Source: Chitinophagales bacterium (GTDB lineage Bacteria; Bacteroidota; Bacteroidia; Chitinophagales; LD1). From it: a DNA stretch of 64,000 nt. The stretch is taken from positions 446,295 to 510,294 of the forward strand of contig JAEUVA010000008.1 of assembly GCA_016787045.1 (NCBI GenBank), written 5' to 3'. How positions within the stretch are numbered: position 1 is the first letter of the stretch; every line of letters begins with the position of its first letter. The notes below the pieces were generated by a model. The model was not told the DNA's origin, searched no databases, and saw only the letters and a list, made by a program, of their open reading frames with translations. Below are positions 7,714-38,838 of the stretch, one piece after another. The translations under genes were made by a program, and so were the position numbers.

Positions 7714-8721
7714 TTAATACTTATTCAAATACTGTTCTGATATCCCTTTCAGTTTATCGGTACCGGCATCCAATATTTTTTGAGAATTGTCGGTAACCAG
7801 CTTGGTAATAAATTTTTGCTTGCCGCTCTCCTTCACTTTTACACTTACCGAATACTTGCCTTGACTATACACATCTTTCAAATTGTAATCTTTGTTTACA
7901 GCATGGCCATACGAGCGGGGTATAAGCATGGCGTAGCCGCCAATGCGCTTATCTAACAAACCATTGTAAGCAGTTTGCTTGGCCGGGTCATCGGGCTTTA
8001 GCGGAAAATCGCGCAGCGAAAACATAAACTTACCTACCGGACTATCGTAAAAGTAGCTGCCCCCTTTGGTTACATAACTGCTCGCAAAGTTGATTTCCAA
8101 ATCTAAGTTCAGTTTATCGTCTTTCTTTTTGTTGCCCCAACTCCAGGGTATATACCAGCGCGTAGTGGGCACTTTGGCTTTGGCATACTGCACATCCAAC
8201 TCTTTTAGTTTCAGATAAAACACCGAGCCGTTTATCATATCATATACGTTTGTGGTGTCAATTTCAAAATAGGCATAAAACACCGTGTCCTGAACCTTCT
8301 TCTTTACATCGGCAATGCGGTATAGTTTGAATCCTTTAAACTGAATGCCGGTAGGGTCAAACGGATTGCTTTCAGAAATCTGGTCATAGAAATAAAGCTC
8401 ATTCATGCTTTGCTGCCATTCGGCTGTGTACTTGGCTTTTTCTACTTCTATGAGTTTAGCTACACCCTGTGCCGCCAAACTAATAGCTTGCCCAATAAGT
8501 GGGAACAAGAAGCCGCGCGTGCTGCTGCGCTGCGCCAGCAATGGAGCATCTTGTTCTTTTAATAAATGTAGAGCCACTGCATTGGTTTGTTCCACTACCT
8601 GCATCACCACTTTTTCGTTTTTCTGCTTGTACGAATATTTAGAGCCCACACAAGAAGTGGCAATTATTGTTGCACAAACACAAAGTGCTAGCAACCTGAT
8701 TAATTCAAGATTTTTTTGCAT
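7714..8721 (-). CDS. Conserved hypothetical lipoprotein
   Basis: 335 residues. Signal sequence MQKNLELIRLLALCVCATII is followed by lipobox ATSC, then VGSKYSYKQ, so it should be lipidated and exported. The rest is a soluble mixed alpha/beta protein with several aromatic-rich strands and no cofactor motif I recognise. It is transcribed with the 318-aa gene upstream (2-base gap), suggesting that the pair acts together in the outer envelope. Function unknown. Confidence 0.72.
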   Translation of the reverse strand: MQKNLELIRLLALCVCATIIATSCVGSKYSYKQKNEKVVMQVVEQTNAVALHLLKEQDAPLLAQRSSTRGFLFPLIGQAISLAAQGVAKLIEVEKAKYTAEWQQSMNELYFYDQISESNPFDPTGIQFKGFKLYRIADVKKKVQDTVFYAYFEIDTTNVYDMINGSVFYLKLKELDVQYAKAKVPTTRWYIPWSWGNKKKDDKLNLDLEINFASSYVTKGGSYFYDSPVGKFMFSLRDFPLKPDDPAKQTAYNGLLDKRIGGYAMLIPRSYGHAVNKDYNLKDVYSQGKYSVSVKVKESGKQKFITKLVTDNSQKILDAGTDKLKGISEQYLNKY

Positions 8722-8723
8722 AG

Positions 8724-9680
8724 TTAAAATTGTACGGGTTGCATACTTAGCCGGATGGTAAAGTTTTCAGGAAGTAGTTTTTTGTTATCCCAACTGGCAC
8801 CAATATCTAACTGTGCGGGGCCTAAGGAAATATAGCCCGTGCCGGTAATCAAAATCATGTTATTGGTTCGTCTGTCCACATCATTACGAGCCGAGTAGCG
8901 GGCATTAAATAAGTTAAACAATGTGCGTCCGCGTATGCCTATCTTGCAAAAATTACCCACTTGGTTGCTTTCTCTACGGCTAAAAATCCAATCGCGGGTA
9001 TTGGCAAAAAGTTGTAAGTCAAAGTCCACGCTTGGCTGAAAAGCAAAGCCGGGGTTATATATTTTTTGATCCATTTTGGGCACATCAAAACTGGCATTGG
9101 TGGCCACATTCAAATTCAAAAACCCGTTTTTGCTTTTGTAAAACGGTACAAAAACCACTGGGCGGTTAAACTGCAAAATCATACTACCACCGCCATTCAT
9201 TATTTTTTGCAGCGAAAGATTTTCCAAATTGGCGGTAGTATCGCCTACACCATTGCTGTAGGCCACTTGCAAGCCAAGTGCCACACGCCCAACACTAATT
9301 TTGGGCAAAAAAGAAAGAATATCTACATAAGTACCTATAGCATTAAGGTCGCCAAAAGGCAACCCAAGACCTGCTGTTTGCAGAGCATTGAACGAAGAGT
9401 TTTTTTTGCCAAAAAAGTTACCGCTAAACACTTCCTTCAGCTCACATTTGTTGCGAAAGGGGATAAAGCCAATTTTGTACGACTCCCCCTCTCCATCGCA
9501 AAAGTTGGTATTTGCACCTCGTTTTTTAATCTCCTTTTCTCCGCCCCGGCTAATTACAGTATCATATACATAGTTAGGGGTGGTGAGTGGTTTTTCTTTG
9601 AATTTAAAGTTGGGAGCCAGCGTTTGAGCACCGGCCAGCATGGCATAGAGCAGCATGGCTGGTAGTAATAATTTCTGCAT
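8724..9680 (-). CDS. Hypothetical outer-membrane beta-barrel-like protein
   Basis: 318 residues with a signal peptide ending AGAQ (about residue 19). The mature part has alternating hydrophobic strands and many Asn/Phe/Tyr turns, and ends ENFTIRLSMQPVQF, with a terminal Phe as in outer-membrane barrels. First gene of a two-gene unit with the lipoprotein gene downstream. No named family recognised. Confidence 0.65.
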   Translation of the reverse strand: MQKLLLPAMLLYAMLAGAQTLAPNFKFKEKPLTTPNYVYDTVISRGGEKEIKKRGANTNFCDGEGESYKIGFIPFRNKCELKEVFSGNFFGKKNSSFNALQTAGLGLPFGDLNAIGTYVDILSFLPKISVGRVALGLQVAYSNGVGDTTANLENLSLQKIMNGGGSMILQFNRPVVFVPFYKSKNGFLNLNVATNASFDVPKMDQKIYNPGFAFQPSVDFDLQLFANTRDWIFSRRESNQVGNFCKIGIRGRTLFNLFNARYSARNDVDRRTNNMILITGTGYISLGPAQLDIGASWDNKKLLPENFTIRLSMQPVQF

Positions 9681-28090: not shown

Positions 28091-28543
28091 CTATTTGTTT
28101 TCTTGTTTTTGTTTAGGAATGACGTACCCCTTAAGGTACAACGTTTCGTTGCGCTTGGCCGTGTTGCAAAACAGGGTAACGGTTTTGGTTTGCTCGCCTT
28201 GCTTGTTGGCGCTATTAAATTCCACATCTAAATTGTAAGTACCCCCCGGCTTTAATGGCTCTTTGCTGTAGGTAGGTACCGTGCAGCCACAGCTTCCGCG
28301 TGCATCGGCAATAATAAAGTTGGTGGTGCCCACATTCTTAATCATAAACGTATGCTTCACCACATCACCTTCGTTAATCGTATCAAATTCAAAAACCATA
28401 CTATCTGAAAACTGCACCACTGCAGTATCTTGCAGCATGGTGGTGGCTATTTTGTATTCCTCGGGTTGCTCACCGGGCTTGCGGCAACTGTAAGCAGCCA
28501 CCAAAATGGTAATAGTGGTAAGGATTAAAAACGGGTTTCTCAT
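28091..28543 (-). CDS. DUF1573 domain lipoprotein
   Basis: 150 residues with lipobox AYSC near residue 20. The Ig-like DUF1573 domain is recognised by FEFDTINEGDVVKHTFMIKN, GTTNFIIADARGSCGCTVP and KPGGTYNLDVEFN. Common in Bacteroidota and often located beside yajC. Role unknown, envelope-located. Confidence 0.9.
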   Translation of the reverse strand: MRNPFLILTTITILVAAYSCRKPGEQPEEYKIATTMLQDTAVVQFSDSMVFEFDTINEGDVVKHTFMIKNVGTTNFIIADARGSCGCTVPTYSKEPLKPGGTYNLDVEFNSANKQGEQTKTVTLFCNTAKRNETLYLKGYVIPKQKQENK

Positions 28544-28654
28544 AGCGGGCGCAAATATATTTTTTAAAAACTAAGGTGCTAATCTCCCACAAATACTACT
28601 GCGCAACCCCGTATTGGGTTATTATAGTATTGTTATATATTGCGGTATGGAAAT

Positions 28655-28679
28655 GAAAAAAGCCGAGTTGCCCCGGCTT
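28655..28679 (-). terminator. Second minus-strand hairpin terminator downstream of tracrRNA
   Basis: Minus strand AAGCCG-GGGCAACT-CGGCTT followed by TTTT. A back-up stop for tracrRNA read-through, about 60 bases beyond the first terminator. Shields the DUF1573-yajC operon. Confidence 0.6.
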
Positions 28680-28724
28680 AAAAGTTTTATTCATCTATAA
28701 TTTTTAGTAAAGTGGAATTCATGA

Positions 28725-28773
28725 AACATTTAGCAATAAAAAAGCCCCGCAGATAGGCGAGGCGCTAAATGTT
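28725..28773 (-). terminator. tracrRNA terminator hairpin nested in an outer 10-bp inverted repeat
   Basis: Inner stem on the minus strand GCCTCGC-CTATCT-GCGGGGC (28763-28744, one G-U pair) followed by TTTTTT. The G-U pair would be a C-A mismatch if read on the plus strand, which supports minus-strand use. AACATTTAGC (28725-28734) and GCTAAATGTT (28764-28773) flank it as an outer inverted repeat. Confidence 0.8.
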
Positions 28774-28820
28774 TTCACAACGGAATAATCCTTATTGTGA
28801 TTTGCTTTCAAAAACGAATA
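28736..28820 (-). ncRNA. tracrRNA of the type II-C CRISPR system
   Basis: The minus strand of 28813-28795 reads TTTTGAAAGCAAATCACAA, perfectly complementary over 19 nt to bases 2-20 of the crRNA repeat (GTTGTGATTTGCTTTC...). After this anti-repeat comes TAAGGATTATTCCG, a small nexus stem (GGA/TCC), then TTGTGAAAACATTTAGC and the terminator hairpin with its T tract. The order anti-repeat, nexus, terminator matches type II-C tracrRNAs. CACAA in the anti-repeat can also pair with TTGTG just after the nexus, an alternative fold that would compete with crRNA binding. Estimated length about 85 nt. The 5' end is inferred from a TATTTTTG element at 28834-28827; RNase III trimming is expected from the family. 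Confidence 0.88.
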
Positions 28821-28826
28821 TAAAAA

Positions 28827-28834
28827 CAAAAATA
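28827..28834 (-). promoter_or_regulatory. Candidate tracrRNA promoter -7 element
   Basis: Minus strand TATTTTTG fits TAnnTTTG and would start RNA near 28820, just before the anti-repeat. It lies only 8 bases from the cas9 ATG, so divergent tracrRNA and cas9 transcription overlap. No TTG at -33 was seen. Confidence 0.5.
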
Positions 28835-28841
28835 ATACACT

Positions 28842-31800
28842 ATGAAAAAAAATATCCTTGGACTTGACCTCGGCACAACCAGCATTGGTTTTGCCCATGT
28901 TATTGAAGGTGAAACAGCAGAACAATCTACTGTAGAGCGAATTGGGGTACGGGTAAATCCGCTTACAACAGACGAGCAAACAAATTTTGAAAAAGGTAAA
29001 CCTGTTTCGGTTAATGCCGATAGAACACTAAAACGAGGTGCAAGAAGAAACCTTGACCGCTGCCAACTGCGCAGAGAAAACCTGATTGAGTTGCTGAAAG
29101 ATGCTAAACTAATAACAGAAGAAAGCATACTCAACGAAGATGGCAAACAAACTACTTTTCAAACTTGGTATCTAAGAGCAAAAGCCGTTACCGAAAGAAT
29201 TGAAAAAGAAGAGTTGGCACGAGTGTTTTTATCCATCAACAAAAAACGCGGTTACAAAAGCAGTCGCAAGGCAAAAAATGAGGAAGAAGGAAAAGCCATA
29301 GATGGAATGGGTATTGCTAAACGCTTATATGAACAAAACCTTACACCCGGGCAATTAGCTTATCAACTATTGCAAGAAGGGAAAAAGTACATCCCTGATT
29401 TTTACCGGTCTGACTTGCAAGCCGAGTTTGATAAAGTGTGGAACACACAAAAGCAGTTTTACCCCGAAATTTTTACAGATGAATTTTACAAAGAACTACA
29501 AGGGAAAGGACAACGGGCAACTGCTACTTCATTTTGGGGAAAATACCAATTCAATATTGCCGAGATAAAAGATTTAGAAACTAAGCTAAAGAATGAGAAT
29601 ACCATAAAACTGCACCTCCGCGATAAAAAGAAACTGCAAGCATATAGCTGGCGCAGCCGAGCTGTTTCGGAGCAATTAGAAAAAGAGCAAGCGGCATATG
29701 TGCTGACTGAAATCAATAACAACCTCCACAACTCAAGCGGTTATTTGGGCAATATTTCTGACCGCAGCAAGGCGCTATACTTTAATAAAGAAACCGTAGG
29801 GCAAAATCAATACGCGCAATTAAAAAAGAATCCGCACGCACGTTTAAAAAAACAAGTGTTTTACCGGCAAGATTATCTGGATGAGTTTGAGGCAATATGG
29901 AGTGAACAAGCGAAACACCATAAGGAGTTGACGGATGAGTTAAAAACTGAGATTAGAGATATTGTAATCTTTTATCAACGCAAACTGAAATCGCAAAAGA
30001 GTTTGATTAGCTTTTGTGAGTTTGAAAACCGCGAGATTGAAGTAAACGGCAAAAAGAAAACTGTTGGATTAAAAGTAGCTCCAAAATCCTCGCCTTTGTT
30101 TCAGGAGTTTAAAATTTGGCAAATGCTGAACAATGTGTTGGTGAAGAAAAAAGGAAGTAAAAAACGAGTAGCCAAAGCCAGTGTTTCGGAAAACGATGAA
30201 GCAGAAATTTTATCGCTTGATTTAGATGCCAAACAAACTTTGTTTAATGAACTAAACCTGAAAGGGAATATAAAAGCTAGCAGAGCCATAGAGTTGTTAG
30301 GTTACAAAGCCAACGAATGGGAATTGAATTATGAAGAGTTGGAAGGCAACAGAACAAATGCAGCATTATATAACGCCTACTTAAAAATATTAGAAATAGA
30401 GGGCTACGATGAAGATTTATTGAAACTAACCGATAAAGACGATATAAATATTGCCGAATTAAAAACACCTGCCGCTGAAATTAGGCAGATGGTTAAACAG
30501 ATTTTTGACGTATTGGGCATCAACACCGAAATTTTAGAGTTTAACGCTGAGTTGGATGGAAAAGAATTTGAACAACAGGCATATTACCGGCTTTGGCATT
30601 TGCTGTATGCTGCCGAAGACGACACAAAGAAATATGACGAACAGGATAAACTATTATACGGCAACGACAACATCGGACTAAAAAAACAACTCTGTTCAAA
30701 ATTTGGGTTCAAACCGGAACATGCTAAAGTGCTGGCCAATGTTGTTTTCTCTGGCGACTATGGAAGTTTAAGCGCAAAAGCCATTCGAAAAATTTACCCT
30801 TACCTAAAAGAAAATAAATACAGCGAAGCGTGTGAACATGCCGGTTACCGTCATTCTGCTTCATCACTTGCAAAAGAGGAAATTGAAAACCGCCCTTTAA
30901 AAGACAAACTGGAACTGCTCAAGAAAAACAGTTTACGCAACCCGGTGGTAGAGAAAATTCTCAATCAGGTGGTGAATGTGGTAAACACATTGATTGAAAC
31001 GAACCGCAAAACAGACCCGAATTTTAGGTTTGATGAGGTAAGAATTGAATTAGCCCGTGAGCTAAAGAAAAATGCTAAAGAGCGGGCGGAGATGACCACA
31101 AACATCAACACGGCCAGAACAAAACACGAAAAGATAGTAAAGGTTTTGCAAAGCGAATTTGGTGTGCCTAACCCAAGCAGAAACGACATTATCAGATACA
31201 AGTTGTATGAGGAACTGAAAAGCAACGGCTATAAAGATTTATACACTAACCAATACATTCAAAAGGAAATACTGTTTAGTAAGCAGATAGATATAGACCA
31301 CATTATTCCGCAGGCACGTTTGTTTGATGATAGCTTTTCTAACAAAACATTGTGCTTTAGAGATATTAACCTCAAAAAGGGAAACCGCACCGCTATTGAT
31401 TACATAGAAAGCGAGTTTGGAAAGGACAGAGCAGAAGAGTTTTTGCAACGTTGTGAATCGCTCTGGGAAGTGAACAAAAAAAATCCTGAAGAAGGAATAA
31501 GCAAAGCCAAACTGAAAAAACTACAAAAGCACGAAAGCGAAATTGGCGATGGGTTTATTGAACGCGATTTGCGCGACAGCCAATACATAGCCAAGAAAGC
31601 AAAGAACATGCTGTTTGACATTACCCGCTCGGTAGTTTCAACATCGGGTAGCATAACTGACCGCCTGCGCGAAGATTGGGGCTTAATCAATATTATGCAG
31701 GAGTTGAATTTTGAAAAATTTAAGGCGCTTGGCTTAATCGAGAAAGTAGAAAAGAAAGACGGAACATTCAAAGAACGTATTGTGGACTGGAGCAAACGTA

Positions 31801-33188
31801 ACGACCACCGTCATCATGCTATGGATGCTCTAACAGTAGCATTTACCAAGCACAATCATATTCAATACCTGAACCACCTCAATGCCCGCTACAACGAAGC
31901 AGATAAGCACCACAAAATCATCAAAGCGATTGAAGGCAAAGAAACACACGTAGTGAAGGATGACAAAGGGAATAGCAATCGTGTATTTAATCTGCCTATC
32001 CCAAACTTCCGTGTAGTAGCTAAAGAGCATTTAGAAAATGTGCTGGTATCGCATAAAGCGAAAAATAAAGTAGTTACCAAAAACAAGAACAGGATTAAAG
32101 TCAAAAATGGCGAGAGAGTAAAAACGGAGCTTACTCCGCGCGGACAACTGCACAAAGAAACCGTTTACGGAAGAATAAAAGTGCCTGTAGTTAAGGAAGA
32201 AAAAGTAGGTGCAAAGTTTGATTTGGAAACAATTAACCTGATTGCTAATCTACAATTCAAACAATTGCTTTTACAACGCTTAACAGAAAACGACAACGAC
32301 CCCAAAAAAGCATTCACGGGAAAAAACAGCTTGCCTAAAAATCCTATTTATCTCAATGACGAGAAAACTGAAGTATTACCTGAAAAAGTGAAACTGCTTT
32401 GGTATGAAGACGGCTATACCATTCGTAAAGATGTAACACCTGATTTGAAGGTTGATAAAGTAATTGATGGCGCTCTAAAAACAGCTTTAGAAAATCGCTT
32501 GAAAGAATTTGGTAACGACCCCAAAAAAGCGTTTGTGGATTTAGAAAAAAATCCAATCTGGCTAAACCAAGCAAAAGGTATTTCCATCAAGCGGGTTACC
32601 ATAAGTGGGGTAAGCAATGCCGAACCGCTGCACTATAAAAAAGACCATTTTGGCAAACAGATATTAGATGAAAATGGGAACAAGATTCCGGTAGATTTCA
32701 TAAGCACCGGCAACAACCACCACGTAGCCATTTACAGAGACGCAAACGGTAATCTGCAAGACCGGGTTGTTTCGTTGTTTGAAGCTGTTCAATTGGTAAA
32801 TGCCGGAGAACCTGTAATAGACAAAACCTACAATCAGGGTTTGGGATGGCAGTTTTTATTTACTATGAAACAGAACGAATACTTTGTATTTCCGAATGAA
32901 AAAACTGGTTTCAATCCTAAGGGGATTGATTTGTTAGATCCCAAAAACAGCAAGTTAATTAGTCCCAATTTGTTTAGAGTTCAAACGCTTTCCAAAGTAT
33001 CATACGGTAATGCTGTTGTAAGAGACTTTTTATTTAGGCATCATCTGGATGCCACTAAAGCATCAGACTTAAATAAAACGTTACAAGGTATCTCTTACCA
33101 TCAATACAAAAGTTTGCCGCCCTTGGAACACATAGTTAAAGTTCGTATCAATCACATTGGGAAAATTGTAAAAGTTGGTGAATACTAA
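28842..33188 (+). CDS. cas9: Cas9, type II-C RNA-guided DNA endonuclease
   Basis: 1448 residues, within the usual range for Bacteroidota II-C Cas9. RuvC-I ILGLDLGTTSIGFAHV with Asp9; an arginine-rich bridge helix follows (RTLKRGARRNLDRCQLRREN). The REC lobe spans about 90-700. RuvC-II RIELARELKK has Glu736. HNH DIDHIIPQARLFDDSFSNK has the catalytic His820 and is followed by NLKKGNRTA. RuvC-III DHRHHAMDALTVAF has His992 and Asp995. The C-terminal 350 residues form the wedge and PAM-interacting region, with two NDPKKAF...NPI.LN motifs. All catalytic residues are intact, so it should cut both strands. Start ATG 28842 is only 29 bases from the tracrRNA anti-repeat. cas1 follows 14 bases after the stop. 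Confidence 0.98.
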   Translation: MKKNILGLDLGTTSIGFAHVIEGETAEQSTVERIGVRVNPLTTDEQTNFEKGKPVSVNADRTLKRGARRNLDRCQLRRENLIELLKDAKLITEESILNEDGKQTTFQTWYLRAKAVTERIEKEELARVFLSINKKRGYKSSRKAKNEEEGKAIDGMGIAKRLYEQNLTPGQLAYQLLQEGKKYIPDFYRSDLQAEFDKVWNTQKQFYPEIFTDEFYKELQGKGQRATATSFWGKYQFNIAEIKDLETKLKNENTIKLHLRDKKKLQAYSWRSRAVSEQLEKEQAAYVLTEINNNLHNSSGYLGNISDRSKALYFNKETVGQNQYAQLKKNPHARLKKQVFYRQDYLDEFEAIWSEQAKHHKELTDELKTEIRDIVIFYQRKLKSQKSLISFCEFENREIEVNGKKKTVGLKVAPKSSPLFQEFKIWQMLNNVLVKKKGSKKRVAKASVSENDEAEILSLDLDAKQTLFNELNLKGNIKASRAIELLGYKANEWELNYEELEGNRTNAALYNAYLKILEIEGYDEDLLKLTDKDDINIAELKTPAAEIRQMVKQIFDVLGINTEILEFNAELDGKEFEQQAYYRLWHLLYAAEDDTKKYDEQDKLLYGNDNIGLKKQLCSKFGFKPEHAKVLANVVFSGDYGSLSAKAIRKIYPYLKENKYSEACEHAGYRHSASSLAKEEIENRPLKDKLELLKKNSLRNPVVEKILNQVVNVVNTLIETNRKTDPNFRFDEVRIELARELKKNAKERAEMTTNINTARTKHEKIVKVLQSEFGVPNPSRNDIIRYKLYEELKSNGYKDLYTNQYIQKEILFSKQIDIDHIIPQARLFDDSFSNKTLCFRDINLKKGNRTAIDYIESEFGKDRAEEFLQRCESLWEVNKKNPEEGISKAKLKKLQKHESEIGDGFIERDLRDSQYIAKKAKNMLFDITRSVVSTSGSITDRLREDWGLINIMQELNFEKFKALGLIEKVEKKDGTFKERIVDWSKRNDHRHHAMDALTVAFTKHNHIQYLNHLNARYNEADKHHKIIKAIEGKETHVVKDDKGNSNRVFNLPIPNFRVVAKEHLENVLVSHKAKNKVVTKNKNRIKVKNGERVKTELTPRGQLHKETVYGRIKVPVVKEEKVGAKFDLETINLIANLQFKQLLLQRLTENDNDPKKAFTGKNSLPKNPIYLNDEKTEVLPEKVKLLWYEDGYTIRKDVTPDLKVDKVIDGALKTALENRLKEFGNDPKKAFVDLEKNPIWLNQAKGISIKRVTISGVSNAEPLHYKKDHFGKQILDENGNKIPVDFISTGNNHHVAIYRDANGNLQDRVVSLFEAVQLVNAGEPVIDKTYNQGLGWQFLFTMKQNEYFVFPNEKTGFNPKGIDLLDPKNSKLISPNLFRVQTLSKVSYGNAVVRDFLFRHHLDATKASDLNKTLQGISYHQYKSLPPLEHIVKVRINHIGKIVKVGEY

Positions 33189-33202: not shown

Positions 33203-34168
33203 ATGATTAAGCGCACCCTCTTCTTCAGCAACCCCACGCACATTTACAAAAAAAATGAGCAGTTGTGCTTTTCTGTAAACCGAAAGGGCGAAACTGAGAA
33301 TGAGGAGAAAGTGATAACTATACCTATAGAAGATATAGGGGTGGTGGTGCTTGACAATAAGCAAATTACCCTTAGCCATGCGGTAATGGATGCGCTGCTG
33401 CAAAACAATGCGGCCATTATTACCTGCAATGACCAGCACATGCCGAGCGGTATGTACCTGAACCTTGACGGACACCATACCCAAACCGAAAAGTTTAAAG
33501 CACAGTTAGAGGCCAGTGAGCCGCTAAAAAAGCAGCTTTGGCAGCAGACGGTAAGTGCTAAGTTGAGGAACCAAGGGAAGTTGTTGCACCTGTTGGCCAC
33601 CTCACCCCCAACCCCTCTCCTTAAAAAGGAGAGGGGGGAAAGAATGCTTGATGCTGCCGATTGGCTACTCTCCTTTTCGCGCGAAGTAAAAAGTGGAGAT
33701 ACCGATAACCATGAAGCACGTGGTGCTGCCATTTACTGGCAAAGTTTGTTTCCGGTTGAAATGAATTTTAGGCGAGAGCGGTTTGGTGAGCCGCCCAATA
33801 ATCTGCTGAATTATGGCTACTCTATTTTGCGCGGGGTTGTAGCACGCGGGTTAGTAGCCAGTGGGGCATTGCCTACTTTAGGGATTTTTCACCGCAATAA
33901 ATACAACGCTTACTGCTTAGCAGATGATATAATGGAGCCATACCGCCCTTATGTTGACCAAATTGTTTGCCGCATAATAAACAGTGGAGAGGACTGGAGG
34001 GAATTAACCCCTTCTATTAAAAAACAGTTTCTTGAAATTCCTGCTTTAGATATAGTAATTGATAATGAGCAAAGCCCATTAATGGTAGGTATGCAGCGCA
34101 CGACCTCTTCACTGATGAAATGCTATGAAGGTGAGTTGAGAAAAATATTGTATCCGGTATTAGAATAA
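33203..34168 (+). CDS. cas1: Cas1 spacer-acquisition integrase (type II) with an in-frame palindromic insertion
   Basis: 321 residues, somewhat longer than the usual 290-305 for type II Cas1. N-terminal beta domain (MIKRTLFFSNPTHIYKKNEQ, GVVVLDNKQITLSHAVMDAL) and C-terminal helical catalytic domain with Glu171 (NHEARGAAIYW), His230 (GIFHRNKYN) and the Asp pair 241-242 before IMEPYRP, which are the metal ligands. Residues 134-147 (SPPTPLLKKERGER) are encoded by a perfect 11-bp palindrome, a mobile-repeat insertion in the helical linker before the catalytic core. The reading frame is preserved and no key residue is lost, so activity is plausible but should be weaker-supported than for an uninterrupted gene. 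Confidence 0.96.
   Translation: MIKRTLFFSNPTHIYKKNEQLCFSVNRKGETENEEKVITIPIEDIGVVVLDNKQITLSHAVMDALLQNNAAIITCNDQHMPSGMYLNLDGHHTQTEKFKAQLEASEPLKKQLWQQTVSAKLRNQGKLLHLLATSPPTPLLKKERGERMLDAADWLLSFSREVKSGDTDNHEARGAAIYWQSLFPVEMNFRRERFGEPPNNLLNYGYSILRGVVARGLVASGALPTLGIFHRNKYNAYCLADDIMEPYRPYVDQIVCRIINSGEDWRELTPSIKKQFLEIPALDIVIDNEQSPLMVGMQRTTSSLMKCYEGELRKILYPVLE
33601..33642 (+). repeat. Palindromic repeat element inserted in frame inside cas1
   Basis: CCCCTCTCCTT (33612-33622), loop AAA, AAGGAGAGGGG (33626-33636): a perfect 11-bp stem. Peptides of the type SPPTPLLKKERGE are a known footprint of intergenic repeat elements that have entered Bacteroidota reading frames. A relative of the palindromes in the cas1-cas2 interval. 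Confidence 0.8.
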
Positions 34169-34173
34169 ATACA

Positions 34174-34534
34174 ACACACCCCTACCCCTCTCAAGAGGGG
34201 ATAAATACACTATACAGCAGTGAAATAGTGTCGGTGTGTGGCTGTTCATCCCCTCTTGAGAGGGGCGACACGAAGTGACGGGGTGTGTGGCTGTTTATCC
34301 CCTCTTGAGAGGGGCGACACGAAGTGACGGGGTGTGTGGCTGTTCATCCCCTCTTGAGAGGGGCGACACGAAGTGACGGGGTGTGTGGCTGTTTATCCCC
34401 TCTTGAGAGGGGAGTGCGCAGCATGTAGCTAAGCAGGGGTGTGTGGCTGTTTATCCCCTCTTGAGAGGGGAGTGCGCAGCATGTAGCTAAGCAGGGGTGT
34501 GTGGCTGTTAAATCAACACAATAAATATTACCTA
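34174..34534. repeat. Tandem palindromic repeat block between cas1 and cas2
   Basis: The 366-base interval between cas1 and cas2 holds no gene. An inverted copy (CCCCTCTCAAGAGGGG, near 34185-34200) is followed by three 49-bp units (34235-34381), two 58-bp units (34382-34497) and a 12-base partial unit. Each unit starts TGTGTGGCTGTT and contains the palindrome CCCCTCTTGAGAGGGG. The two unit sizes differ only in the tail (CGACACGAAGTGACGGGG versus AGTGCGCAGCATGTAGC...). A further inverted copy lies after cas2. Confidence 0.9.
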
Positions 34535-34870
34535 ATGGCTATCCGACTAAACCAATACCGTATTATGTGGATACTCGTATTTTTTGACCTGCCCACCGAA
34601 ACCAAGCAAGACAAAAAGAACTATACCAAATTTAGAGATGGTATGCTTGACGATGGTTTTACCATGTTTCAATACAGCATATATGTACGCCATTGCGCCA
34701 GCCGCGAAAACACCGAAGTACACCTTAAGCGCATCCGCTCCATACTACCACCAAAAGGCAAAGTGGTTATTATGAACATCACCGATAAGCAGTTTGGCAT
34801 GATGGAGATATTTGACGGGAAGGCAGAAGCCCCGCGACAAAAGTTGCCACAGCAGTTGGAGATGTTTTAA
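34535..34870 (+). CDS. cas2: Cas2, CRISPR adaptation subunit
   Basis: 111 residues from ATG 34535. Ferredoxin-like fold; forms the Cas1-Cas2 integrase with Cas1. MWILVFFDLPTETKQDKKN contains the conserved Asp after strand 1, FQYSIYVRHCASRENTEVH matches the Q-S-V/I-(Y/F)-x-R region, and GKVVIMNITDKQFGMM is the fourth strand. An in-frame GTG 12 codons upstream falls in the repeat block and is unlikely to be used. Separated from cas1 by the repeat block, so cotranscription may be affected. No csn2 or cas4 follows, supporting subtype II-C. Confidence 0.96.
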   Translation: MAIRLNQYRIMWILVFFDLPTETKQDKKNYTKFRDGMLDDGFTMFQYSIYVRHCASRENTEVHLKRIRSILPPKGKVVIMNITDKQFGMMEIFDGKAEAPRQKLPQQLEMF

Positions 34871-35042: not shown

Positions 35043-38000
35043 GTTGTGTAGCAAAGAACGAGAAATACATTTTGAAAGCAAATCACAACAAACTTATGTG
35101 TCTAAAGATAATACATCAAGTTGTGTAGCAAAGAACGAGAAATACATTTTGAAAGCAAATCACAACTAAAATGTTCCATTTCCATTTCTGGATGAGTTGT
35201 GTAGCAAAGAACGAGAAATACATTTTGAAAGCAAATCACAACGATTAATTGGTTTAAAAAAACGTATGATTTGTTGTGTAGCAAAGAACGAGAAATACAT
35301 TTTGAAAGCAAATCACAACGGATGCAATAGGTAATAGATATACATGCAGTTGTGTAGCAAAGAACGAGAAATACATTTTGAAAGCAAATCACAACCTATA
35401 ACTACTCTCAGCAAACTCTCGGTCTGTTGTGTAGCAAAGAACGAGAAATACATTTTGAAAGCAAATCACAACAATTTTCATTGTTCATAATTATTTGTTT
35501 AAGTTGTGTAGCAAAGAACGAGAAATACATTTTGAAAGCAAATCACAACCCAATTTAGGAGTTTCAAAATTTACACTTGGTTGTGTAGCAAAGAACGAGA
35601 AATACATTTTGAAAGCAAATCACAACACGAATTGTACTTTACAACCAATGCTGATAGTTGTGTAGCAAAGAACGAGAAATACATTTTGAAAGCAAATCAC
35701 AACCTCTTCCAAACGCTCATCAACAATCTTTGGGTTGTGTAGCAAAGAACGAGAAATACATTTTGAAAGCAAATCACAACAAATGGCAGATTGCGTAGAT
35801 TTATTATCCGGTTGTGTAGCAAAGAACGAGAAATACATTTTGAAAGCAAATCACAACTTATTTAAAATTTCCCCACGCTTCGCATTTGTTGTGTAGCAAA
35901 GAACGAGAAATACATTTTGAAAGCAAATCACAACACCGCTGATAATGTTGACTTTTCGGGGATTGTTGTGTAGCAAAGAACGAGAAATACATTTTGAAAG
36001 CAAATCACAACCTACCCTGCATTTAGTGGGTTGAAAATTACGTTGTGTAGCAAAGAACGAGAAATACATTTTGAAAGCAAATCACAACATCGTTAACGAG
36101 ATAGCCGCCACATCTAAAGTTGTGTAGCAAAGAACGAGAAATACATTTTGAAAGCAAATCACAACACATAAAGCAAGCGGGACGTTATAGGTAAGGTTGT
36201 GTAGCAAAGAACGAGAAATACATTTTGAAAGCAAATCACAACAAGTGTGGATTTGGACTGAGGCATTGTATGGTTGTGTAGCAAAGAACGAGAAATACAT
36301 TTTGAAAGCAAATCACAACCCGCTCAACCTAACAACACTAAACAACTTGGTTGTGTAGCAAAGAACGAGAAATACATTTTGAAAGCAAATCACAACATAA
36401 TGTATCTGCTGTGTACATTTATCGCCGTTGTGTAGCAAAGAACGAGAAATACATTTTGAAAGCAAATCACAACCATACCCTGATGATAGGGTAACTGTTG
36501 AAGTTGTGTAGCAAAGAACGAGAAATACATTTTGAAAGCAAATCACAACCTGTATTTAGATTTTTACCCAGCTATACCAGTTGTGTAGCAAAGAACGAGA
36601 AATACATTTTGAAAGCAAATCACAACTATCATACAAATGATAAGCAGTTTCTTCATGTTGTGTAGCAAAGAACGAGAAATACATTTTGAAAGCAAATCAC
36701 AACTTGCCGTGTCAACAGTGGCGTTGACGGGGGGTTGTGTAGCAAAGAACGAGAAATACATTTTGAAAGCAAATCACAACAAGCCGAGCGAAAGGCCGCG
36801 CGTAAGAAGTGTTGTGTAGCAAAGAACGAGAAATACATTTTGAAAGCAAATCACAACGTCCAATGTTTTGTTGCTTGAAGTAGTTTTGTTGTGTAGCAAA
36901 GAACGAGAAATACATTTTGAAAGCAAATCACAACGGAAATTTAATCACCAACATACCGGCACAGTTGTGTAGCAAAGAACGAGAAATACATTTTGAAAGC
37001 AAATCACAACGAGTAGGCGTTAATCCGGCTTCAATGCTTTGTTGTGTAGCAAAGAACGAGAAATACATTTTGAAAGCAAATCACAACACAGGCATAAACG
37101 AATTAGACAAGGATTATGTTGTGTAGCAAAGAACGAGAAATACATTTTGAAAGCAAATCACAACAATTGACCAAAAAGCAAATAGGGATGCTGGGTTGTG
37201 TAGCAAAGAACGAGAAATACATTTTGAAAGCAAATCACAACCCCACAGTATAGTGGCAATGTGGCGTACAAGTTGTGTAGCAAAGAACGAGAAATACATT
37301 TTGAAAGCAAATCACAACAGTACCCATACAATGAAAAAGCAAAAACTCGTTGTGTAGCAAAGAACGAGAAATACATTTTGAAAGCAAATCACAACCAATT
37401 TTTAAAAGCTATACCATTGAAGTAGGTTGTGTAGCAAAGAACGAGAAATACATTTTGAAAGCAAATCACAACTAGGTAGTTGTTTACTGCTTACGGAAAA
37501 AGGTTGTGTAGCAAAGAACGAGAAATACATTTTGAAAGCAAATCACAACCCCCGCAAGTGTAGATATTTCAGAGAGCTAGTTGTGTAGCAAAGAACGAGA
37601 AATACATTTTGAAAGCAAATCACAACCTTCAGCTTCTTGCTTGGCCGCTTGTGCTTGTTGTGTAGCAAAGAACGAGAAATACATTTTGAAAGCAAATCAC
37701 AACCTCAATTAAGTAAATACATATAATATTTAAGTTGTGTAGCAAAGAACGAGAAATACATTTTGAAAGCAAATCACAACTATAGCAACGCGACAAAGCG
37801 GTAGAACTGAGTTGTGTAGCAAAGAACGAGAAATACATTTTGAAAGCAAATCACAACCAACCTGCGTTGTCGTTTTTGTTGGGCGTTGTTGTGTAGCAAA
37901 GAACGAGAAATACATTTTGAAAGCAAATCACAACGCACCTGCACCGCAGCCACAAACAGCTACTGTTGTGTAGCAAAGAACGAGAAATACATTTTGAAAG

Positions 38001-38838
38001 CAAATCACAACGCGTTTCGTTTTATTCAGTATCTCGTCTATGTTGTGTAGCAAAGAACGAGAAATACATTTTGAAAGCAAATCACAACAAAGCACCGGCA
38101 ACGGCCAACGCGCCCAAAGTTGTGTAGCAAAGAACGAGAAATACATTTTGAAAGCAAATCACAACGGCTTGTGCTTGTACATGGTATGGTTTCCAGTTGT
38201 GTAGCAAAGAACGAGAAATACATTTTGAAAGCAAATCACAACGGTGGTAAATTGATGTTTTTGTTTTCATAGTTGTGTAGCAAAGAACGAGAAATACATT
38301 TTGAAAGCAAATCACAACCTTCTCAAATCTGCTATGCCGGTTATCCATGTTGTGTAGCAAAGAACGAGAAATACATTTTGAAAGCAAATCACAACTCTGC
38401 AATACAGAGGCAAATGAGAGTGTAAGTTGTGTAGCAAAGAACGAGAAATACATTTTGAAAGCAAATCACAACGGACGCAAAGGAATAGGTTTTGAATTAA
38501 AAGTTGTGTAGCAAAGAACGAGAAATACATTTTGAAAGCAAATCACAACGAACACTATAAACACGTTGATAGATGCGTTGTTGTGTAGCAAAGAACGAGA
38601 AATACATTTTGAAAGCAAATCACAACTACATAGATAATACACACCGCGCTATTGAGTTGTGTAGCAAAGAACGAGAAATACATTTTGAAAGCAAATCACA
38701 ACGCTACTGCGGCCAAGGCAATCCAAGGCAAGTTGTGTAGCAAAGAACGAGAAATACATTTTGAAAGCAAATCACAACAACCTTGCCGCAGGCGCAACAC
38801 AAGGCTGGTTGTGTAGCAAAGAACGAGAAATACATTTT
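35043..38838 (-). CRISPR. Type II-C CRISPR array, 49 intact repeats plus one interrupted, 49 spacers
   Basis: Repeats are 47 bp at a spacing of 76-77 bp, leaving spacers of 29-30 bp. The first repeat is 35043-35089, the last intact one 38732-38778, and a damaged copy begins at 38808. As read, the 49 intact copies are identical. Read on the minus strand the repeat begins GTTGTGATTTGCTTTC and ends GCTACACAAC, with terminal inverted repeats GTTGTG/CACAAC. The tracrRNA anti-repeat is complementary to this minus-strand 5' end, so mature crRNAs come from the minus strand and are transcribed toward cas2. The beginning GTTGTGATTTGCTTTC is, from memory, shared with the Bacteroides fragilis II-C repeat. 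Spacer origins cannot be judged without searches. Long open frames across the array only translate the repeat. Confidence 0.98.

Follow-up and report, generated by a model that had tools for sequence, protein, structure and literature searches.

The crRNA-repeat likeness in the leader of a Bacteroidota type II-C cas9 is the complement of a tracrRNA gene, and probable antisense overlap of the two transcripts

The window, by which we mean the whole 64,000-nucleotide stretch of Chitinophagales DNA analyzed here, contains a type II-C CRISPR-Cas locus in which cas9 (28842-33188, plus strand, 1448 aa), cas1 (33203-34168, plus strand) and cas2 (34499-34870, plus strand) follow in this order and adjoin a CRISPR array (35043-38778) of 49 exact 47-nt repeats, whose crRNA strand is the minus strand. 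As regards csn2 and cas4, the interval between cas2 and the array holds no plus-strand open reading frame of at least 60 aa. Tandem G+C-rich repeats of 49-58 nt each lie between cas1 and cas2 (34231-34493). The upstream neighbor of cas9 is a DUF1573 gene on the minus strand (28091-28543), with a predicted promoter represented by the -7 box TATATTTG (28552-28559, minus strand); because this gene is divergent, no read-through from it into cas9 is expected.

Immediately upstream of cas9, the minus strand carries what is, judged from its sequence, a complete tracrRNA gene (28735-28822), with an anti-repeat complementary to the array repeat (28813 to 28795), a nexus hairpin and a Rho-independent terminator consisting of a hairpin and U tract (28739-28767). 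An 11-bp inverted repeat, AAACATTTAGC / GCTAAATGTTT (28724-28735 and 28763-28775), flanks the terminator hairpin. The 5' end of the tracrRNA was placed from the position of its -7 box: TATTTTTG, read from 28834 to 28827 on the minus strand, matches TAnnTTTG, the Bacteroidota -7 consensus that spans -12 to -5 (PMC9723704), and the predicted start is therefore 28822. This main box gives the tracrRNA a 9-nt extension before the anti-repeat, and weaker minus-strand boxes are located at 28852 and 28854. An exact TAnnTTTG box within 50 nt past the anti-repeat was found in 49 of 69 related loci, against 4.5 in shuffled sequences (maximum 9).

Read on the plus strand, 28795-28813 is TTGTGATTTGCTTTCAAAA, the same sequence as positions 2-20 of the 47-nt array repeat, just as the initial annotation of this region had stated. 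The identity is not due to chance, since this 19-mer occurs genome-wide once on the plus strand, at this site, and 49 times on the minus strand. It ends at repeat position 2, base 28794 being A where the repeat has G1, and the distance from this repeat mimic to the ATG of cas9 is 28 bases. Given that a complete tracrRNA is encoded on the minus strand, the 19-base match is the necessary complement of the anti-repeat. That origin, also proposed in the annotation, is supported by a covariance model (R1) that matches the minus strand at 28735-28809 with 89.1 bits (E 5.5e-19), the sole tracrRNA match in the genome, the window sequence being itself among the 42 divergent tracrRNAs from which R1 was built. 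In the alignment of these 42, 28 columns from the anti-repeat through the nexus are invariant, and covariation in the nexus is thin, with one pair changing from AU to GC on both sides in three tracrRNAs. The stretch before the mimic, which includes AAATGTTTTCACAACGGAAT (28767-28786), has the look of a guide; its bases 28773-28794 (plus strand) are the complement of the nexus.

To place this arrangement in context, we compared 82 sources (set 1), namely the window, the same-genus locus G015 and the best 80 of 185 relatives. R1 recognized a tracrRNA in 80 of them, missing L060 and L082; it is divergent to cas9 in 77 and co-directional in three (L056, L058 and L073). In L007, both tracrRNA and cas9 lie on the opposite strand relative to the other loci, and this locus was included in the promoter-box comparison after reversal. 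In L021, a HIRAN-domain gene (8482-8988, plus strand) is located between tracrRNA and cas9. Across overlapping genome samples, R1 matches were obtained in 72 of 396 genomes of the order, 55 of 355 of the class and 28 of 395 of the phylum. These samples supplied 137 further loci (set 2, which leaves out the tracrRNA matches G444, G476, G769 and G783), 112 of them with a recognized core and a divergent cas9 start; the 25 dropped comprise 15 without a recognized core and 10 without a divergent cas9 start. Five duplicates in set 2 were removed from the promoter-box counts and kept in the counts of spacing and solitary elements.

Additional tracrRNA pieces are present in the window and in some relatives. 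The 23 nt at 28657-28679 are identical to the tracrRNA terminator of G015; this sequence occurs once in the window's own genome (allowing up to 2 mismatches) and in two of the 18 genomes of the genus, the window's included, so an older tracrRNA probably stood there, of which this would be the relic terminator. Similarly, L048 has a second, weaker tracrRNA (8776-8850, 41 bits), and G953 (C38) has two adjacent tracrRNA matches. Such relic or duplicate pieces beside a working tracrRNA suggest replacement of the cas9-tracrRNA cassette.

The array repeats of set 1 also contain promoter-like sequences. An exact TAnnTTTG box is found in 31 of 58 repeats, against 1.3 in shuffles (maximum 5), and 29 of these repeats have a TTG 17-21 nt upstream of the box, so that many of them look, by sequence, like complete sigmaA promoters. 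The TTG in Flavobacterium repeats is named in passages of PMC8092290 and PMC10309648. The array repeat of the window lacks an exact TAnnTTTG box. A separate observation concerns the Riemerella phage vB_RanS_CRP19 (OR089151.1; L259 2500-2710), which carries an unannotated mini-CRISPR array. Its three repeats, almost the same as one another, are type II-C-like and contain a TATCTTTG box, and its two spacers, 30 nt long, are identical; the spacer has no full-length target in other phage records.

The initial annotation further proposed that tracrRNA might pair with the cas9 mRNA, leaving the matter to the position of the cas9 promoter. In the window, no promoter-like box was found on the plus strand between the mimic and the ATG, and the best plus-strand box anywhere in 28544-28841 scores 5.5, whereas the boxes of tracrRNA and DUF1573 score 10.4 and 11.5, respectively, on a -7 matrix whose training set combined tracrRNA boxes (including that of the window) with long-gap cas9 promoters. 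This matrix replaced one trained by EM on upstream regions of the window's own genome, which had drifted and did not separate the strands. Upstream of the tracrRNA, 28614-28643 (plus strand) offers one or more weak candidate cas9 promoters, TTG-N19-TATATTGC and TAGTATTG at 28625. A box of the SM5 type, TAnnTTGY (described in PMC9723704), at 28636 was rejected as a cas9 promoter, as the upstream regions of genes in the same genome show no enrichment of TAnnTTGY (37 vs 31.8).

The same comparison was extended to 91 short-gap loci (27 of set 1, the window included, and 64 of set 2), counting boxes that match at 5 of 6 positions against dinucleotide shuffles. Plus-strand boxes in the gap do not exceed expectation (6 vs 7.4 in set 1; 15 vs 18.0 in set 2), and 26 of 27 and 62 of 64 loci, respectively, have a -7 box on its minus strand. 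Plus-strand counts within the tracrRNA body are low (2 vs 17.2 and 10 vs 39.5), which means little because the tracrRNA fixes the sequence of the body. Just upstream of the tracrRNA 3' end, over 60 nt, the plus strand shows a weak excess that concerns the 5-of-6 boxes only: 20 of 27 loci in set 1 vs 16.5 expected, a level reached by 7 of 100 shuffles, and 42 of 64 in set 2 vs 34.0 expected, reached by 2 of 100. Exact boxes there show no clear excess (3 of 27 vs 2.1; 3 of 64 vs 3.6). The larger excess given by mononucleotide shuffles (20 of 27 vs 14.5) was discarded, as the expected value rose to 16.5 with dinucleotide shuffles. G015, whose gap is 50, has an exact TAGATTTG 96 nt upstream of its anti-repeat; another short-gap relative, the cultured Algoriphagus marinus (L016), has a gap of 60.

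Since neither the window nor the 91 short-gap loci have an above-chance promoter box in the gap, sense RNA over the anti-repeat is likely and pairing with tracrRNA plausible; this part of the earlier proposal is retained, as antisense pairing and not as a crRNA with a guide. In the window, transcription of cas9 thus likely begins upstream of the tracrRNA 3' end, so that its mRNA would traverse the tracrRNA gene in antisense. Our preferred reading, to which we assign a probability of roughly two in three, is that the mimic is the anti-repeat complement and that the cas9 mRNA, likely starting upstream, pairs with the head-to-head tracrRNA as plain antisense, not as a crRNA. The tracrRNA gene, with its consensus -7 box on the minus strand, would stand head-to-head with cas9, and the cas9 transcript would run through it against its direction because the gap to the ATG appears too small for a cas9 promoter. 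The likely consequences would be head-on transcriptional interference between cas9 and tracrRNA, and an RNase III-sensitive duplex that couples their levels.

A different start would remove this overlap. If a promoter that overlaps the anti-repeat made cas9 transcription begin past it, at 28814-28841, the two transcripts would lie back to back with no sense RNA crossing. Long-gap relatives appear to be built in this way: an exact plus-strand box between anti-repeat and ATG is present in 23 of 43 long-gap loci of set 1 (4.5 expected) and in 7 of 39 of set 2 (3.5 expected; 8 of 100 shuffles as high). In the window, TTGTGA-N18-TATAAA at 28795-28824 resembles a sigma70-type promoter, but TATAAT is not enriched upstream of genes in the same genome (11 vs 32.4 shuffled), and neither the window gap, which lacks a TAnnTTTG-like plus-strand box, nor the 91 short-gap loci support such a start above chance. 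Some weight is kept for a promoter overlapping the anti-repeat because the sigmaA boxes of this genome are degenerate (197 upstream regions contain 52, vs 33 on the reverse strand and 19.9 in shuffles); overall, we regard a downstream start as unlikely, though a serious contender.

The antisense reading could also be carried further, by supposing that the short-gap layout is kept under selection as a feedback switch in which cas9 is silenced, by RNase III or by collision, when tracrRNA is abundant. The layout is common: among 182 loci whose anti-repeat was located (five of them duplicates), the distance from it to the ATG is at most 72 nt in 94, 73-330 nt in 84 and longer in four, the window having 47 nt. 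In addition, the presumed cas9 leader contains the tracrRNA promoter. Its distribution points the other way, to loose packing. On a tree of 82 Cas9 proteins built by a quick method, the short-gap label requires 15 changes, at least 13 of them forced by well-supported branches, and it differs even between the close sisters L024 and L031. Given these changes, and given that long-gap cas9 promoters appear to lie downstream of the anti-repeat, the overlap is not a conserved device, and we consider a selected switch improbable.

The annotation also suggested that the leader itself could imitate a crRNA, with the preceding bases serving as guide, and our results speak against it. Pairing of the 19-nt mimic with tracrRNA does come close in energy to that of array-repeat positions 1-20 (ddG -18.3 vs -19.8). 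In the predicted fold of the leader, the guide-like bases form a stem with the beginning of the mimic (CACAA...TTGTG). The duplex of leader and tracrRNA reaches a ddG of -57 kcal/mol for a leader from 28773 and -110 for one from 28736, compared with -18 for the 19 nt alone, and such a continuous duplex would destroy the nexus that Cas9 needs.

The sense strand was compared in 69 of the 82 set-1 loci, the 13 others, without a close sense-strand match, being left out. Position 1 is A in all 69, whereas array repeats have G, and G1 of the array repeat forms a G-U wobble in the crRNA-tracrRNA pair. Among the 52 loci with a usable repeat, the sense strand matches its own array repeat at positions 2-15 in 21, and in another 21 it equals the repeat minus one base. 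Besides position 1, substitutions on the sense strand comprise 5 T>C and 13 others, so that wobble-compatible changes are not favored; this pattern argues against mimicry more clearly than for any pairing rule. A sense strand kept as a copy would follow the array repeat, and since it often differs, it is not conserved as a repeat.

The search for a target led to the same result. Against the cas9 upstream region, the leader guide has a best 3' seed of 8 nt, at -322 inside the DUF1573 gene, a length that about 3% of unrelated guide-region pairs also reach, and the 49 array spacers match this region over at most 8 nt (mean maximum in shuffles, 7.9). The leader thus appears to lack the guide with a defined target in the cas9 upstream region that would characterize a scaRNA or crRNA mimic, and, with no solitary repeat-like element found within 1.6 kb of the cas9 start, the window appears to lack a CreR-like autorepressor as well. 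A leader that truly mimics a crRNA, being processed together with tracrRNA and taken up by Cas9, is therefore very improbable in spite of the near-equal pairing and of the mRNA-derived crRNAs known in C. jejuni (PMC8224270): its guide is the complement of a nearly invariant nexus and folds onto the mimic, its best seed falls within a neighboring gene, its sense strand is not conserved as a repeat, and it would not be expected to target itself, because its own locus has, except at position 1, the flanking bases of an array spacer. On the antisense reading, the window leader is predicted not to guide Cas9, and guiding of Cas9 to the cas9 promoter is predicted instead for dedicated crRNA-like elements in seven related loci. 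The idea of Cas9-bound repression of cas9 through a crRNA-like RNA, also raised in the annotation, is consequently dropped for the window and kept, on sequence grounds, for those loci.

These elements were obtained from a survey of solitary repeat-like sites within 1.6 kb of cas9, which gave 52 sites in 194 loci. A null that included tracrRNA-like guides (7.9-10.7 expected) proved contaminated; the 11 sites with such guides were removed, and the sequence up to the anti-repeat was masked, which also took out a 9-nt match in L209 and an 8-nt match in L216. Of the remaining 41 sites (18 in set 1, 23 in set 2), five, three in set 1 and two in set 2, have a guide whose 3'-anchored seed matches the cas9 upstream region over at least 10 nt, against 0.15-0.19 expected, and nine have a seed of at least 8 nt, against 1.1-1.3 expected. 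The 8-nt seeds of L162, and of L148 at -49, were taken as chance.

The seven elements retained differ in the length and position of their seeds. The longest belongs to L196 (1981-1996), with 12 nt and a target at -44, followed by L161 (1897-1912), with 11 nt and a target at -273; the L161 element is situated in the cas9 leader itself, and its target ends 18 nt before a plus-strand TATCTTTG box at -244. Seeds of 10 nt are found in the minus-strand elements of L010 (8851-8866, target -60), L012 (8861-8876, target -61) and L028 (3015-3030, target -53), where guide and target covary (AGATTAGTAT, ATATTAGTAT, AGATTAGTAG). The weakest members are L035 (2795-2810, minus strand), with an 8-nt seed occurring twice (targets -80 and -54), and L148 (1298-1313), with an 8-nt seed and a target at -158; taken one by one, their seeds are near chance. 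The five target flanks of L010, L012, L028 and L035 fit NARTTTT, a predicted PAM, and those of L148, L161 and L196 do not; searches of arrays against phages for the PAM of L010 and L012 returned no usable protospacers.

Pairing between the repeat-like part and the tracrRNA of the same locus is stronger than in any of 200 shuffles in six of the seven loci, the exception being L010, which lies within the shuffle range (-9.4 vs a minimum of -10.5). A script identified exact closing stems of 14 bp in L012 and of 12 bp, followed by a U tract, in L148 and L161. The shorter closing stems of L010, L028 and L035 were read by eye with both arms present, the script having given other A+T-rich arms, and L196 has a 3' hairpin only.

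The elements of L010, L012, L028 and L035 are located in the leader of a DUF3800 gene (PF12686) that lies on the minus strand between tracrRNA and cas9 (8084-8818, 8094-8828, 2242-2976 and 1999-2733, respectively), and which may represent guarded cargo or a toxin. Homologues in the overlapping samples of 395 and 396 genomes (E <= 1e-40) amount to five distinct genes, and their flanks, inspected up to about 1.5 kb, contain neither a tracrRNA core nor repeat-like sequence.

As predicted from sequence, the seven loci combine the features of a CreR-like system: a solitary repeat-like element, a short 3' seed in the promoter region and pairing with their own tracrRNA. We find it quite likely that in some Bacteroidota type II-C loci (7 of 194, the window not among them) a dedicated crRNA-like RNA guides Cas9-tracrRNA to the cas9 promoter and acts as an autorepressor. 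We hold it to be just as credible that this proposed regulator, with its seed of 8-12 nt, would be the equivalent of CreR in types I and V-A and of the long-form tracrRNA in type II-A. Among the open-licence papers listed in our literature searches, none reports a crRNA-like cas9 autorepressor in type II-C in its title or abstract opening. The short covarying guide-target pairs of L010, L012 and L028 are suited to reporter testing.

The window, for its part, carries an ordinary divergent tracrRNA with probable antisense overlap of the cas9 mRNA. Its analysis separates a tempting motif, a repeat copy in a cas9 leader, from its ordinary cause, and provides a testable rule: compact divergent tracrRNA-cas9 loci, which make up 94 of the 182 with a located anti-repeat, should yield antisense pairs of cas9 and tracrRNA.

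A divergent tracrRNA upstream of cas9 is also a feature of Streptococcus. Closer to the window, type II-C loci of Riemerella anatipestifer (PMC5006608) and F. psychrophilum (PMC10309648) resemble the window in having cas1, cas2 and the array next to cas9 and an anti-repeat or a tracrRNA upstream of it. Antisense overlap with the leader of cas9, as in our reading of the window, is not a subject of the passages available from these two reports; the passage from PMC10309648 places the cas9 promoter, by inference, 153 bp upstream within an IS982 and does not settle the transcription of tracrRNA.

Several known systems link RNA from outside the array to tracrRNA and Cas9, including scaRNA (PMC6199352, PMC13431127) and noncanonical crRNAs derived from mRNA (PMC8224270). 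The window leader differs from these in being complementary to all of the tracrRNA and not to the anti-repeat alone. The target described for the scaRNA of type II-C Neisseria is efeUOB mRNA and not the cas9 promoter (PMC13431127). In the long-form tracrRNA of Streptococcus, a 9-bp sequence is complementary to the cas operon promoter (PMC8730458); the shared idea is Cas9-guided control of its own operon, and, unlike that form, the predicted tracrRNA of the window begins 9 nt before the anti-repeat. The seven related loci, each with a crRNA-like element that has a short match in the cas9 promoter region, resemble the CreR crRNA-like regulators described in types I and V-A (PMC12737573). The seven loci differ from CreR in being type II-C with a tracrRNA, in having six of the seven elements inside a closing stem and in the placement of four in the leader of a DUF3800 gene. 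If these elements do repress cas9, guide-based autoregulation by crRNA-like RNA would extend to type II-C.
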